Below the pieces are notes generated by a model. It did no database searches and was not told the origin of the DNA. It saw nothing but the letters and a program-made list of their open reading frames with translations. Below are positions 33,586-39,375 of a DNA stretch of 47,070 nt, piece by piece (within the stretch, counting starts at the first letter, position 1; every line of letters starts with the position of its first letter). Source of the DNA: Bacillota bacterium (GTDB taxonomy: Bacteria > Bacillota > Sulfobacillia > Symbiobacteriales > ZC4RG38); NCBI GenBank assembly GCA_021890795.1, contig JAKKUO010000015.1:1-47070 (forward strand). The letters are read 5' to 3'. A program made the position numbers and the translations under genes.

Positions 33586-36500
33586 TCACTCGGTCACCTG
33601 GGTCGGATCCACCTGCTGGCTGACGGGGACGATGGCCACGAAGCACCGCTCGCAATCCAGCATCAGCTGTAGCACCTCGGCGGCCTCCTCTTCCTGGCCC
33701 GAGTCCAGCAGGGCCTGGTGGTAAGCCCCCAGGAGTTCCGTCAGGTCCTTCTTGCCCTGGCTGCCGATGCCGGTGATCCGGACCCGGGCACTCTTGGCCA
33801 GCCGCCGCCGGAGCGCGGCCTCGTCAAACCCCAGCTCCGGCTGGAGCCGCACGTAGACCACCCCGCCGGTCATGCCGGCGCAGATCCACGGCCCCGGATC
33901 GCCGAGGACCACCACCCGGCCCCGGGTCATGTACTCAAAGGCAAAGCCCTTGAGGTTGGCCCGGGTACCGATCAGCCCCTGCCCGTCGTCCACCGGCCCC
34001 CGGAGCCGGCCGCCCAGGACCACGTCGGCACCGGAGAGCCGGACGCAGCACCGGGCGTCGGCATCCCCCTGGACCAGGAAGAGGCCCCTCTGGGCACCGT
34101 AGGCAAAGCTCTTGCCCACGGACCCGCCGACCCACTGGCCGAACCGGTTCCGGGTCTTCAGGATCCGGACGACGCCGCCGGCCGCACACTTGCCGACACC
34201 GTCCTGGGCGCCGCCGTGGACGGTGATCTCCACCCCGTCGACGTTGAAGGCCCCGAGGCCGCTGCCCGCGGCAGCCCCCTCCTCCAGGCGGATCTCCACC
34301 CGCTCCGGGCCGCTCTCCCCGGACCCGTGGAGCCGCTGCCGGGCGAGCTGACCCGCCACGGGGGTGCCGAGGGCCCGGTCCCGGGCCTCGACCCCGGCGA
34401 GGTGGAGCTGCACCTCCCGCTGCCCTTCCTGGAGGTGACCGGCGGCCACCGCGACCAGCTGCCGATCGAGGGAGGCGGCGAGCCGCCGCACCGTCCCCCG
34501 CTCGCCGGGGGCTGCCTCTGCCTCGGCCGGGACGGGCGTCAGCAGGGCCGAGAGGTCCACCCGGTCCAGCCCCCGGACCTGCCGGAGGAGCTCCACCCGC
34601 CCCACCAGGTCCTGGGTCCGCCGGGCTCCGAGCCGGGCGGTGAGGAGCCGCACCTCCTCGCCGATGCTGGTGAAGAGGGTGACCAGGCGCTCCACCGCCT
34701 CCTCATAGACCCGGGGAACGAACTGCTTCAGGCCCCGCTCCCGGGCCTCCTCCACCGTCTCGATCTGGGTGGCGATCCCCACGTGGCAGGTGTCCAGCTG
34801 GCAGCCCCGGCAGATGGTGCAGCCGACGGCCACCATCGCCAGGGTGGCAAAGCCCACCCGGTTGGCGCCCAGGAGGATCATCTTGATCACGTCGAGGCCG
34901 CTGCGCATACCGCTGTCGGCCCAGATCTCCACCCGGTCCCGGAGCCCCGCCTCCACCAGGGCGAGGTGCGCCTCCCGAACGCCGATCTCGATGGGAAGCC
35001 CCGCGTGGCGCAGGGCGTGCTTCCGGGCAGCCCCGGTGCCGCCGTCGTAACCGCACAGGGCGATGATGTCTGCCCCCGCCTTGGCGATCCCCACCGCGAG
35101 GGCACCGATCCCGGGCACCGCCGCGACCTTGACGACCACCTTCCCGTCGGGGTTGACGGCCCGGAGTTCCTGCACCAGCTGGGCCAGGTCCTCGATGGAG
35201 TAGACGTCGTGGTTGTTGGAAGGCGAGATCAGGTCCACACCGGGCGCCGCGTTCCGGGCCGCCGCGACCTTCAAGGAGACCTTCTTCCCAGGCAGGTGGC
35301 CGCCCTCACCGGGCTTGGCCCCCTGCCCGATCTTGATCTCCATAAAGCGGCTGCCGGCGAGCATCGGTGCGTGGACCCCGAACCGGCCCGAGGCGACCTG
35401 CTGCCCCCGCCACTTGTAGTACCGGCCGACCAGGTCCGGGATCTCCCCGCCCTCGCCGTTCATGCAGACGATCTCCAGCCGCCGGGCCGCCTCGGCGTAG
35501 GCCCGGAAGGCCGTCTCCCCCTGGGAGCCGAAGGACATCCCGGAGATGGTGATGGGGTAGGCGTAATCCTCGATCCGGGTGTCCACCTCCGCCGGGTTTA
35601 CCCCGCCCACCTCCACCAGGTCGGTGAGGTGCCTCAGGCACACCGGCGTCTCCCGCTCAACGGCCTGGAGCCGGGCGGTGTAGGCCTCGTACCGGCCGGG
35701 GTCCTGCGCCGCCTCCCCCGCCGCCTTCCAGACCTTGGGCCAGATCCGGAAGGTGTGGGCGAGGCGCGGCCGGACCTCCCCGGCGCTCACGATGGCGTAC
35801 CGCTCCTCCGCGTCGGCCTTCAGCCGGTCAAAGCCCAGGCCGGCGTCCTCCGAGCCGCAGTAGTTGACGCACCCGAAATACCGGGCCACCTCGGGCCTCA
35901 GGCCGATGCTGCTGAAGTGCCGGCCGTAACCCCGGAGTTCGTAGATCCCCAGGGTGGAGATCACCTTCTCCAGCCCCTTGGTAAGGGCCTCCAGCAGCCG
36001 GTCGATGCCCTGGCGGGGATCCGTCTGGGCCGCCACCTCCAGCATCAGGTAGGGGTTGACCGCATCGGCCCCCAGCCCCAGGGCCAGGACCAGGTCGTGG
36101 AGGCTGCGGATCGCCCCGGAGCGGAGCACCACGGCACACCGCCGCCGGAGGTTGGACTCCTCCTGTGGCACCGGGTACTCCCTCAGAGCCCGGTCCACCG
36201 CGGCAAGGGCCAGGTGCGGGTCGATCCAGAGCCGCCCGTCCTGGAAGCACTCCCGATCGTCCAGGATCAGCAGTTCCGCCCCCGCGCGCACCGCCGCCAC
36301 CGCCTCCCGGCCCAGGCGCTCCAGGGCCTCCGGGAGGCTCTCGCTGGCCAGGAAGGCGGTGGGGAGCACCCGGACGATCCCGGGATCCTTCCCCGCCCCG
36401 TGAATCGGGTCCCACTCCCGGCAGAGGTCCTCGAGAAGCCGGGTGCCGTGCCGGGCGGCGACCTGCCGGTAGGTGCCGAGGTCAAGAGGCATGGGGCCGG

Positions 36501-38241
36501 CGTGGCCCCCGAGGATCACCGGCACCTGGAGCTCCACCCGGGTCCGGTGGACAAGGGCCAAGTCCGCGCTGCCGCGGACCGCCAGGGGCGGCCGGGCCCC
36601 CAGCACCACCCGGGTGGAGAAGTGCTCGACCTCCCGGTCCCGGTCCACCGCGGGGCAGGTGATCGCGGCGACGCTCTCCTTGAAGTAGTCCGCGAGGTTC
36701 TGCCGCTCCTGGGCGAGAGCCGCCAGGGGGCCGTCGTACCCCAGGGAGCCGATGGGCTCGCTGCCGGTCTGGGCCAGGGCCCGGACCATCTGGTGGTCCT
36801 CGGTGCTCCAGCCCAGGGCGGCCAGGAGCCGCTCATTGGGGCCGGAGAAGGCCGCGGGCTCCCCGGAGGCCGTGCCGCCGGGGCCCTGCGCCTCCGCCAG
36901 GGGCAGGCCCGGGACGCCGGCGGGCTCCATCCCCGGAGAGGTGCTGCTGAGGTACCGGCGCCAGCCCTCCGGGGCCGGGAACCGCTCCCGGGCCAGGCGC
37001 AGCACCCGGTCCTGCACCTCCGGATAGGAGAGGAGTTCCGGCGGGCCGTCTGGCCGCAGCAGAAGGCCGACCTTCTCCCCCGGCGCGAGGGGCCGCGGGT
37101 CCCGGACCACCTCGGCGATGGGCACGACCCCCTGCTCCGAGGCGAAGAGATACTCCTCCTCGGTCTCCAGGAGCCACAGGGGCCTGAGGCCCATCGCGTC
37201 CACGGAGAAGACCATCTCGTCCCGGTACCGGGCCGCCACCGCCGCCGGACCCTGGGCGAAGGGGCCCCAGGCCTGCCGCAGGTACAGGTAGAGGTCCTGC
37301 AGCTCCGGCTTCAGCCCCCGGATCTCCGCCAGGATCGGCGGGAAGACCACCTCCATGGCCTCCATCAGGGTGAACCCGTACCGGTGGATCAGCCCCCCGA
37401 GGCACCGGTCCAGGTCCTGGGCGTCGGTGCCCCCCCTGGTGAGGGGGATCCCCAGGGCCAGGGTCTCTTCCCGGAACTTACCGATGGTGCTGATTCCGCC
37501 GTTGTAGGCCAGGAGGTGGAAGGGCTGCGCCCGTTCGAAGAGGTCAGTGACGCTCGTGGAGAACAGGTTGTGGCCGATGGCCGCCCGGGTAGCCAGCCGG
37601 GGATCCTGGAGTTCCGGGTAGTACCGGCGCAGGGTCTCCGGGGTGCCCCGGACCTTGTAGACCGCCACCTGGGTGCTGAGGGAGACCACCGTCACCGGGG
37701 TCTCCGCCTCGATGGCCAGGCCCAGGGAGAAGAGCCGGCTCTCCCCGGTCTCCGGATCGGGGCACAGGAGGGCAACCTGCCAAAGCTCCGGCTCCTCCGC
37801 CCGGCCCCGGGGGCCCAGGGCGCTGGAGTCCACCGGAGCCGTCCGCTCCAGGAGCACCTCAAACCCCTCGGCGGCTATCCGCCGCAGGATCTGCTCCTTC
37901 AGCTCCCTGGCGCCGCAGGCCACCGACCGGGGGATGAAGAAGTGGCCAACGGCGAAGCGGGAGTCGTAGGCCAGCTCCGGGGGCCGGCCGGCCCCGGCCA
38001 GGGCCTCAGCCCACAGGGCCCGGGGGATGTCCACCTGGATCCCGCAGCCGTCCCCCTCTCCGTCCACATCGCCGCAGCGGTGGGCCAGCGCCGCCAGCGC
38101 GGACAGCAGCCGCTCCACCAGGCCGTGGTCCGCCCGGCCATCCTTCCGGACCACAGCGACCAGGCCACACCCGTGGTGCTCCCAGGCCCGCAGGTACTCC
38201 CGGATCCGCCGGGGATCCATCGCCTGTTCACGCACCTGCAC
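33586..38241 (-). CDS. gltB: Glutamate synthase large subunit (GOGAT alpha)
   Basis: About 1551 residues. I chose GTG 38241, which has a strong GGAGGGGG site; the frame to 38322 lacks one. A 24-residue propeptide then precedes the nucleophile Cys (C25, HHG|CGLVAVV), as in enzymes matured by self-cleavage. Order: class II glutaminase domain, linking domain, FMN/2-oxoglutarate synthase domain (SPSNNHDVYSIEDLAQLV, GYDGGTGAARKHALRHAGLP), the [3Fe-4S] motif with Cx5Cx4C spacing in CTICRGCQLDTC, and the C-terminal GxGxG-type helix (GVGKCAAGGVVRI, GGVVYVRL). It makes glutamate from glutamine and 2-oxoglutarate. No small subunit gltD is adjacent, so the electron donor is encoded elsewhere or is ferredoxin. 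A GlnR/TnrA-type box and a promoter lie upstream. Confidence 0.96.
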   Translation of the reverse strand: MQVREQAMDPRRIREYLRAWEHHGCGLVAVVRKDGRADHGLVERLLSALAALAHRCGDVDGEGDGCGIQVDIPRALWAEALAGAGRPPELAYDSRFAVGHFFIPRSVACGARELKEQILRRIAAEGFEVLLERTAPVDSSALGPRGRAEEPELWQVALLCPDPETGESRLFSLGLAIEAETPVTVVSLSTQVAVYKVRGTPETLRRYYPELQDPRLATRAAIGHNLFSTSVTDLFERAQPFHLLAYNGGISTIGKFREETLALGIPLTRGGTDAQDLDRCLGGLIHRYGFTLMEAMEVVFPPILAEIRGLKPELQDLYLYLRQAWGPFAQGPAAVAARYRDEMVFSVDAMGLRPLWLLETEEEYLFASEQGVVPIAEVVRDPRPLAPGEKVGLLLRPDGPPELLSYPEVQDRVLRLARERFPAPEGWRRYLSSTSPGMEPAGVPGLPLAEAQGPGGTASGEPAAFSGPNERLLAALGWSTEDHQMVRALAQTGSEPIGSLGYDGPLAALAQERQNLADYFKESVAAITCPAVDRDREVEHFSTRVVLGARPPLAVRGSADLALVHRTRVELQVPVILGGHAGPMPLDLGTYRQVAARHGTRLLEDLCREWDPIHGAGKDPGIVRVLPTAFLASESLPEALERLGREAVAAVRAGAELLILDDRECFQDGRLWIDPHLALAAVDRALREYPVPQEESNLRRRCAVVLRSGAIRSLHDLVLALGLGADAVNPYLMLEVAAQTDPRQGIDRLLEALTKGLEKVISTLGIYELRGYGRHFSSIGLRPEVARYFGCVNYCGSEDAGLGFDRLKADAEERYAIVSAGEVRPRLAHTFRIWPKVWKAAGEAAQDPGRYEAYTARLQAVERETPVCLRHLTDLVEVGGVNPAEVDTRIEDYAYPITISGMSFGSQGETAFRAYAEAARRLEIVCMNGEGGEIPDLVGRYYKWRGQQVASGRFGVHAPMLAGSRFMEIKIGQGAKPGEGGHLPGKKVSLKVAAARNAAPGVDLISPSNNHDVYSIEDLAQLVQELRAVNPDGKVVVKVAAVPGIGALAVGIAKAGADIIALCGYDGGTGAARKHALRHAGLPIEIGVREAHLALVEAGLRDRVEIWADSGMRSGLDVIKMILLGANRVGFATLAMVAVGCTICRGCQLDTCHVGIATQIETVEEARERGLKQFVPRVYEEAVERLVTLFTSIGEEVRLLTARLGARRTQDLVGRVELLRQVRGLDRVDLSALLTPVPAEAEAAPGERGTVRRLAASLDRQLVAVAAGHLQEGQREVQLHLAGVEARDRALGTPVAGQLARQRLHGSGESGPERVEIRLEEGAAAGSGLGAFNVDGVEITVHGGAQDGVGKCAAGGVVRILKTRNRFGQWVGGSVGKSFAYGAQRGLFLVQGDADARCCVRLSGADVVLGGRLRGPVDDGQGLIGTRANLKGFAFEYMTRGRVVVLGDPGPWICAGMTGGVVYVRLQPELGFDEAALRRRLAKSARVRITGIGSQGKKDLTELLGAYHQALLDSGQEEEAAEVLQLMLDCERCFVAIVPVSQQVDPTQVTE

Positions 38242-38475
38242 AGGACATCCCCCTCCTCTCCATGTCTCTCCGTTCCCGCCGACCCGGCGGCGCGGGCCTG
38301 GGGTTTGTGAACCGTTTCCCAATCCCCGTTGCGCCCCAGGGCCCAGGTCACCACTGCCCCCGGGGCCGGTCCGGCTCGGACGGGACCCAGCTTGGGCGGG
38401 GTGCCAGGCCGCGGCCCCTGCCGCGCACCGATCGCCCGGCCGGGTTCCCCGGGATTCGTCGGCGGTTTGTGCCAG

Positions 38476-38505
38476 ATGTTACTCCAGGAGAAGGCCCCCT
38501 GTCAA
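38476..38505 (-). promoter_or_regulatory. Sigma-A-like promoter of gltB
   Basis: On the minus strand TTGACA (38500-38505, perfect -35), an 18-base spacer, and TAACAT (38476-38481, four of six for -10). The predicted transcript starts near 38469, giving a leader of about 230 bases before the GTG. The GlnR/TnrA-type box lies immediately upstream. Confidence 0.6.
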
Positions 38506-38512
38506 TTTGGAT

Positions 38513-38529
38513 TGTCAGGTTTTCTGACA
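38513..38529. promoter_or_regulatory. GlnR/TnrA-type nitrogen regulatory box upstream of gltB
   Basis: TGTCAGGTTTTCTGACA matches the 17-base Bacillus GlnR/TnrA pattern TGTNA-N7-TNACA at every fixed position. Its centre (38521) is about 52 bases upstream of the predicted gltB start point, close to the 49-51 bases reported for TnrA-activated promoters. In Bacillus TnrA represses gltAB, so activation versus repression cannot be decided from sequence. The link to the nitrogen-assimilation gene makes the site credible. Confidence 0.65.
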
Positions 38530-38574
38530 CGGCACAACCTGCGTCTTTGTAATGAACTTGATTACGATCTGTTA

Positions 38575-39375
38575 TCAGTTCGGCCGGGGGCCGCCTCCCC
38601 CGGGCGGCGCCGCCTCCCCGGCCGGCCGGGTGGCCGGAGCCGCCCCCGGCCGGAGGTAGAGCAAGAACTCCTGGTTGCCGTCACCTCCGAGGATCGGGGA
38701 CGGGACAACGCCTCCGGAGACCAGCCCCAGGGCCGCCGCGGCGGTCAGGACCCGGGCCACCGCCTCCTCACGCCGCCGGGGATCCCGGACAATGCCTCCC
38801 TTCCCCACCCCGGACCGGCCCACCTCGAACTGGGGCTTGACCAGGAGAATCTGCTCGGCCCCCGGGGCCAGCCGGACCAGGTGGGGGAGCACCAGGGTGA
38901 GGGAGATGAAGGAGACGTCGCAGGTCACCAGGTCCGGCGGCTCTCCCGGAAGGGCCGTCAGGGTGCGGACGTCGGTCTCCTCCAGGCTCACCACCCGGGG
39001 GTCCCGGGCCAGGTCCGGATGGAGCTGGCCCCGGCCCACGTCCACCGCATAGACCCGCCGGGCCCCCCGCTCCAGGAGCACCTGGGTGAAGCCGCCGGTA
39101 GACGCCCCGACATCGAGGCAGACCCGGCCGGCGGGGGAGACCCCGAACCGGTCCAGGGCTGCCGCCAGCTTCAGCCCGCCCCGGCTGACGTAGCCGATGG
39201 GGTCCCCGGCGGCTTCCAGCCGGTCCGCCGGCGTGACGGGAAAGCTCGGCCGGGTCACCACCCGGCCGTTTACCGAGACCAGGCCCGCCCGGATCGCTGC
39301 CTGGGCCCGCTGCCGGCTGGGGTAGAAGCCCTGCTGCACCAGCGCCACATCGAGGCGGGTACTGCCCGCGCCCAT
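38575..39375 (-). CDS. tlyA: TlyA-family rRNA 2'-O-methyltransferase
   Basis: 266 residues. An N-terminal S4 RNA-binding domain (RLDVALVQQGFYPSRQRAQA, AGLVSVNGRVVTRPSFPV) is followed by an FtsJ-like methyltransferase with SAM motif VCLDVGASTGGFTQVLLERG, VYAVDVGRGQLHPDL and catalytic-region text TCDVSFISLTLVLPHL and LLVKPQFEVGR. TlyA enzymes methylate ribosomal RNA and affect capreomycin sensitivity in mycobacteria. In spore-formers the gene sits between dxs and nadK, but here gltB and three other genes follow instead of nadK. The C-terminal Pro/Gly tail is not conserved. Confidence 0.95.
   Translation of the reverse strand: MGAGSTRLDVALVQQGFYPSRQRAQAAIRAGLVSVNGRVVTRPSFPVTPADRLEAAGDPIGYVSRGGLKLAAALDRFGVSPAGRVCLDVGASTGGFTQVLLERGARRVYAVDVGRGQLHPDLARDPRVVSLEETDVRTLTALPGEPPDLVTCDVSFISLTLVLPHLVRLAPGAEQILLVKPQFEVGRSGVGKGGIVRDPRRREEAVARVLTAAAALGLVSGGVVPSPILGGDGNQEFLLYLRPGAAPATRPAGEAAPPGGGGPRPN

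Follow-up and report, generated by a model that had tools for sequence, protein, structure and literature searches.

Does the palindrome that stands before a glutamate synthase gene in this genome act as an operator for a nitrogen regulator of the GlnR/TnrA type, and would the bound protein raise or lower transcription of the gene? The window, meaning the whole stretch of DNA that was analysed, comprises 47,070 nt of the forward strand of contig JAKKUO010000015.1 from assembly GCA_021890795.1. The host genome (G000; 103 contigs, 2.79 Mb) was compared within a set of 61 genomes of its class, its own included. The relatives discussed most often are a sister species (G001), a member of another genus of the same family (G002), the family or order members G002, G004 and G007, and a member of another family of the class (G019). 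We take the host order to lie outside the class Bacilli.

The gene in question, gltB, occupies positions 33586-38241 on the minus strand and was assigned from its reading frame and Pfam matches as the large subunit of glutamate synthase (1551 aa). Its product contains the domains GATase_2, Glu_syn_central, Glu_synthase and GXGXG, and its match to NCBIfam PRK11750 fell below the cut-off of that model. Translation likely begins at the GTG at 38241, preceded by GGAGGGGG, and the stop codon ends at 33586. Fer4_20, which belongs to the small subunit of glutamate synthase, had no match anywhere in the host genome, so the partner of GltB may be ferredoxin or something else. On the 5' side of gltB and on the same strand lies a tlyA-like gene (38575-39375, stop codon at 38575-38577), for which the TIGR00478 match was above cut-off.

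At positions 38513-38529, TGTCAGGTTTTCTGACA forms a perfect TGTNA-N7-TNACA palindrome with no mismatch to the consensus; the window holds no other perfect site. Its minus-strand sequence is TGTCAGAAAACCTGACA, a predicted GlnR-type operator. In minus-strand order the box (38529-38513) is followed, after 7 nt, by the -35 hexamer TTGACA (38505-38500) and, across an 18-nt spacer, by the -10 hexamer TAACAT (38481-38476). This promoter was the single match in a scan of positions 38150-38700, where the mean over 50 shuffles was 0.0. With the start point presumed from the -10 hexamer to lie near 38469, the centre of the box falls at -52. The original prediction of a perfect box at about -52 of gltB, directly upstream of a TTGACA promoter, was borne out in both respects, and the box has the position expected of a GlnR/TnrA operator, next to the promoter of a nitrogen-assimilation gene. 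The predicted 5' leader spans about 228 nt on the minus strand (38242-38469) and has conserved stretches in common with the sister species. Comparison of the leader with Rfam gave nothing credible; the best match, at 6.3 bits, was at the level of chance, and a riboswitch was rejected.

The consensus alone is insufficient to single out this box, which is distinguished by its place, its exactness and its conservation. Perfect sites were expected 0.03 times per window (400 first-order shuffles), and the probability of a perfect site in the 333-nt region upstream of gltB was 0.0005 (20,000 shuffles). When one mismatch was allowed, two sites were found in the window against 1.99 expected. Across the whole host genome the bare consensus was weakly enriched, with seven perfect sites against four for a backwards control; beside those at gltB and glnR (see below), there were four others, on C4, C11, C78 and C96. 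An AT-core pattern with at most one mismatch was not enriched in the host (11 sites against 10 for the backwards control); the corresponding counts were 7 and 3 for the sister species, and 12 and 2 for G002. Without mismatches, this pattern was found only at glnR and gltB in the sister species, and in the host at the same two genes and at two sites absent from the sister-species matches. The longer form TGTCAG-N5-CTGACA, again without mismatches, was confined in the host genome to gltB and glnR. A scoring matrix was built from 18 sites of the GlnR-regulon type in the order, with the gltB sites withheld. The gltB box scored 26.6, above all 18 training sites (19.9-26.4), and the next best site in the window scored 14.5. 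A different palindrome, TGTAAA-N5-TTTACA, was noted at L010:4220-4236 in the host, where one arm base differs, and at L093:2465-2481 in the sister species. The host copy lies about 105 nt before a gene for an iPGM-type phosphoglycerate mutase (Pfam) and the other copy before the matching frame; their matrix scores are low (12.9 and 17.8), and this palindrome probably belongs to another regulator.

Conservation of the gltB site was followed through the order genomes that have both GlnR and a readable gltB upstream region, namely G000, G001, G002 and G004; in G007 this region is unreadable. In the sister species the box and both hexamers are all identical to those of the host, and the box lies inside an identical run of 42 nt. 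The G002 promoter reads CATGAAAAAACCTGACA-7-TTGACA-18-TACCAT, with the site again centred at -52, two mismatches and an intact right half; this degenerate site was the best of 684 positions and was equalled by 12 of 1000 shuffles. A strong site in G004 is centred at -108 of gltB and may serve a divergent gene for diaminopimelate epimerase. No gltB site was found in two members of the order, G003 and G006, in which even the best match to GlnR is weak (1.9e-6 and 1.3e-9, respectively). Three genomes of the class that carry both gltB and a GlnR-like gene (G023, G043 and G058) have no strong gltB site, and no box with at most one mismatch at glnR either. In G019 the DNA upstream of gltB is readable for 162 nt only. 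It is extremely improbable that the gltB box is a functionless chance palindrome: although sites with at most one mismatch are just as numerous in the window as expected, a perfect one is rare in a region of this size, and this one is kept unchanged in the sister species and lies exactly before the sole promoter found in the scanned interval.

A search of the whole host genome with PF13411 (MerR_1) gave two matches, a GlnR-like protein and a TipA-like protein. The GlnR-like gene (L007:2563-2940) encodes 125 aa and ends 26 nt before glnA (L007:2967-4382). Its product matched Pfam MerR_1 with 83 bits, and its nearest solved structures were the GlnR chains 4r4e (2.3e-18), 7tec and 7tea, with TnrA behind (2.2e-11). 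In NCBIfam the protein stayed under every listed cut-off, with HspR as the best match (67 of 105 bits) and TnrA third (55.9 of 140). The accessible part of PMC9249791 gives Arg28, Arg31 and Tyr32 of the Sa protein as base-contacting residues of GlnR; by our own mapping these are identical to R29, R32 and Y33 of the GlnR-like protein. The DNA crystallised in that study, as given in the same part, starts with CGTGTCAG, and the gltB site starts likewise. The protein resembles GlnR in having a MerR DNA-binding domain with the Arg/Arg/Tyr contacts, a gene that adjoins glnA, and operators of its own.

These operators are two perfect boxes (C77:2462-2478 and 2531-2547) that flank the glnR promoter, TTGACC-17-TATAGT, with centres at about -49 and +20. 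Paired glnR boxes 69-70 bp apart are present in six genomes (G000, G001, there on a contig fragment, G002, G004, G007 and G019). The GlnR-like loci that were read are the best 30 from the 61 genomes, own included, and in half of them (15 of 30) the 400 nt upstream contain a perfect box. The contig piece of G007 ends before the gene 3' of glnR, which leaves glnA outside view there. Four ammonium transporter genes, one each in G002 and G004 and two in G007, have a box on each side of the presumed promoter as judged by eye; the downstream box in G002 has one mismatch. A box at the glutamate dehydrogenase gene of G004 spans the presumed -10. No ammonium transporter was found in the host genome, hence there was no amtB box to look at. 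As a separate observation, L079:2347-4356 encodes a 669-aa fusion of an ammonium transporter and a P-II protein (residues 81-511 and 559-668).

The original prediction had placed gltB under GlnR/TnrA-type regulation, had proposed a search for a glnR- or tnrA-like gene and for the same box near glnA, and would have been abandoned had the genome lacked any GlnR or TnrA homologue. A GlnR-like MerR gene is present before glnA with two boxes at its promoter, and the gltB box is conserved, so this reading stands as far as GlnR is concerned. The TnrA half did not survive. No separate TnrA paralogue was found by the whole-genome PF13411 search, the other match being TipA-like, and TnrA was dropped as the regulator. 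The palindrome could instead be the site of another dimeric regulator, its fit to the GlnR consensus being fortuitous. Such a reading would suit the shortness of the consensus, its weak genome-wide enrichment and the fact that NCBIfam gives the MerR protein no GlnR name. Against it, both in the host and in five relatives, the promoter of the GlnR-like gene is flanked by two copies of a near-identical sequence, and the genome yielded only two MerR_1 proteins. We consider another regulator at this box very unlikely; judged from these sequences, the GlnR-like protein very probably binds it.

The GlnR-like protein differs from GlnR at its C-terminus, which ends ...SLYPLSNRAELLEWIDRDDD and does not carry the XG(E/D)XSRF motif. 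The SRF tail is described, in the available portion of PMC9249791, as the part of GlnR that meets feedback-inhibited glutamine synthetase. None of the 30 class loci, own included, has LSRFF, and 26 of them have a SLY-type motif. Twenty-five named GlnR loci were taken for comparison, of which L096 and L100 have tails that are cut off; the class member L158 was excluded. Among the 23 with the tail in view, LSRFF is found in 13 and absent in 10, and the SLY-type tail is found in none. We take these 23 loci to be from Bacilli. Since LSRFF is absent from 10 of the 23 named GlnR proteins too, it marks the mechanism and not the family, and we use the name GlnR-like for that reason. The glnA product gave full-length matches to 3ng0, 4xyc, 1hto, 2gls and 1f1h (542-580 bits), presumably cyanobacterial, mycobacterial and enterobacterial enzymes. 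The match to 4lnf, which we take to be the B. subtilis glutamine synthetase, covered residues 161-465 only (325 bits). With no SRF tail and a glutamine synthetase nearer to the non-Bacillus chains, the nitrogen signal may differ from that of the known system. A relation between tail type and glutamine synthetase type, suggested by a strict pattern, was discarded; under a looser pattern the SLY tail occurs with either enzyme type.

Farther upstream, at positions 38560-38576 of the minus strand, a second palindrome, GATAAC-N5-GTAATC, was found, centred near -99 of gltB. Its general form, GATNAC-N5-GTNATC, is expected 0.015 times per window and recurs in the gltB promoters of the sister species and G002 (L046:2470-2486 and L095:1707-1723 in the relatives). 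In all three promoters, from two genera, its centre lies 47 bp upstream of the centre of the GlnR box. A related form, GTAAT-N7-ATTAC, is found without mismatches at gltB alone in the host and in the sister species, and is absent from G002. The second-best matrix site at gltB of the sister species scored 10.0 and overlaps the upstream palindrome; in the host, no second GlnR box with a score above 0 was found at gltB. T-N11-A spacing is a hallmark of sites for LysR-type regulators and is seen in the second palindrome, so its regulator is possibly of the LysR type. GltC is a LysR-type activator of gltAB in B. subtilis, according to the accessible text of PMC6794564. The present locus resembles that system in its T-N11-A palindrome upstream of gltB and differs in that no GltC-like gene was assigned here and in the position of the palindrome at about -99. 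Of nine LysR matches, eight loci were examined, and none of these carries the upstream palindrome. The second palindrome in three gltB promoters and the GlnR-like protein with a different tail are the new details of this locus.

The best explanation of the whole, to which we give slightly better than even chances, is an operator for the GlnR-like protein that would place gltB and glnRA under one nitrogen signal, with repression slightly favoured over activation. The GlnR-like MerR protein encoded before glnA would bind the gltB box, and the genes for glutamate synthase and glutamine synthetase would answer to the same signal. Bound under plentiful nitrogen just upstream of the -35 hexamer, GlnR would cover DNA that RNA polymerase or an upstream activator would otherwise touch, and another regulator would probably occupy the palindrome 47 bp further upstream. 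Weighing against this explanation are the NCBIfam scores of the protein, its missing SRF tail and the type of its partner enzyme, the absence of a perfect box at half of the class loci, the three class members with no strong gltB site and the distant box of G004. Whether GlnR lowers gltB transcription is an evenly balanced matter. A scan of public genomes, which demanded a box 4-8 nt before TTGACA and does not show how common this position is, gave at least 119 box-plus-promoter loci. Genes were assigned to the listed loci with six query proteins. Among the matches listed, 30 of 119 precede, within 700 nt, a gene for GlnR (26), GlnA (2), AmtB (1) or, in the sister species, GltB (1), and the other 89 are without an assigned gene. 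Eleven of the 26 glnR promoters among these matches have a 7-nt gap to the -35 and no box with at most one mismatch within 120 nt downstream, and two of the 11 have a box about 106 nt upstream. From their record titles we take all 11 to be from Lactobacillales. Their operators resemble the gltB site in being perfect TGTCA-N7-TGACA boxes 7 nt before TTGACA with no downstream box, and differ in standing before glnR rather than gltB. In S. mutans, GlnR is a repressor and PmrA activates from the same box, as reported in the open part of PMC4959772. The presence of this single-box position at Lactobacillales glnR, together with repression by GlnR in S. mutans, means that the position by itself gives no sign of the direction of control.

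The strongest alternative, in line with the suggestion in the original prediction that regulation may be reversed here, is that GlnR activates gltB from -52, the opposite of what TnrA does at gltAB in B. subtilis, and that a co-activator occupies the second palindrome at a constant spacing from it. A box near +20 is present at the examined glnRA and amt promoters of the order and absent at gltB, and this leaves room for activation; the single upstream box and the missing +20 box count for activation, and the latter also against repression. The -10 hexamer TAACAT fits the consensus at four of six positions, and the 47-bp spacing to the second palindrome is constant in two genera. Activation of nif by GlnR from an upstream site is described for P. 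polymyxa (accessible part of PMC6191146), where GlnR also raises gltB, though indirectly and with no site at that gene (available part of PMC9948412). These points are countered by a perfect -35 hexamer at gltB, by the same single-box position at the 11 Lactobacillales glnR promoters among the matches listed, and by repression by GlnR in S. mutans (PMC4959772, open part). The nif system also differs in geometry, as far as the same part of PMC6191146 describes it: sites I and II flank the promoter, an arrangement shared by the glnRA and amt promoters of the host order, whereas gltB has the upstream site only, and the activating site I is 58 bp from the -35 as against 7 nt here. We regard activation as a serious alternative with somewhat less than even chances. 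A fuller version, in which GlnR and the second regulator 47 bp upstream would together activate gltB, paired boxes would repress glnRA, and nitrogen would be sensed through the different tail and glutamine synthetase type, appears doubtful.

One of the known systems nearest to this locus is that of B. subtilis, where gltAB is repressed by TnrA (PMC4475385 and PMC9948412, in the parts available). In both cases glutamate synthase is under a GlnR/TnrA-type regulator, as predicted here; unlike B. subtilis, the host has a GlnR-like protein only, with no TnrA found. In the open part of the literature that was searched, no link of GlnR to Symbiobacterium or Thermaerobacter was found. The present observations point to GlnR control in the host order, in which both halves of ammonium assimilation would be tied to one regulator. 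With a tail and a glutamine synthetase unlike the pair in the solved contact, this system could show whether GlnR has an alternative form of nitrogen sensing.
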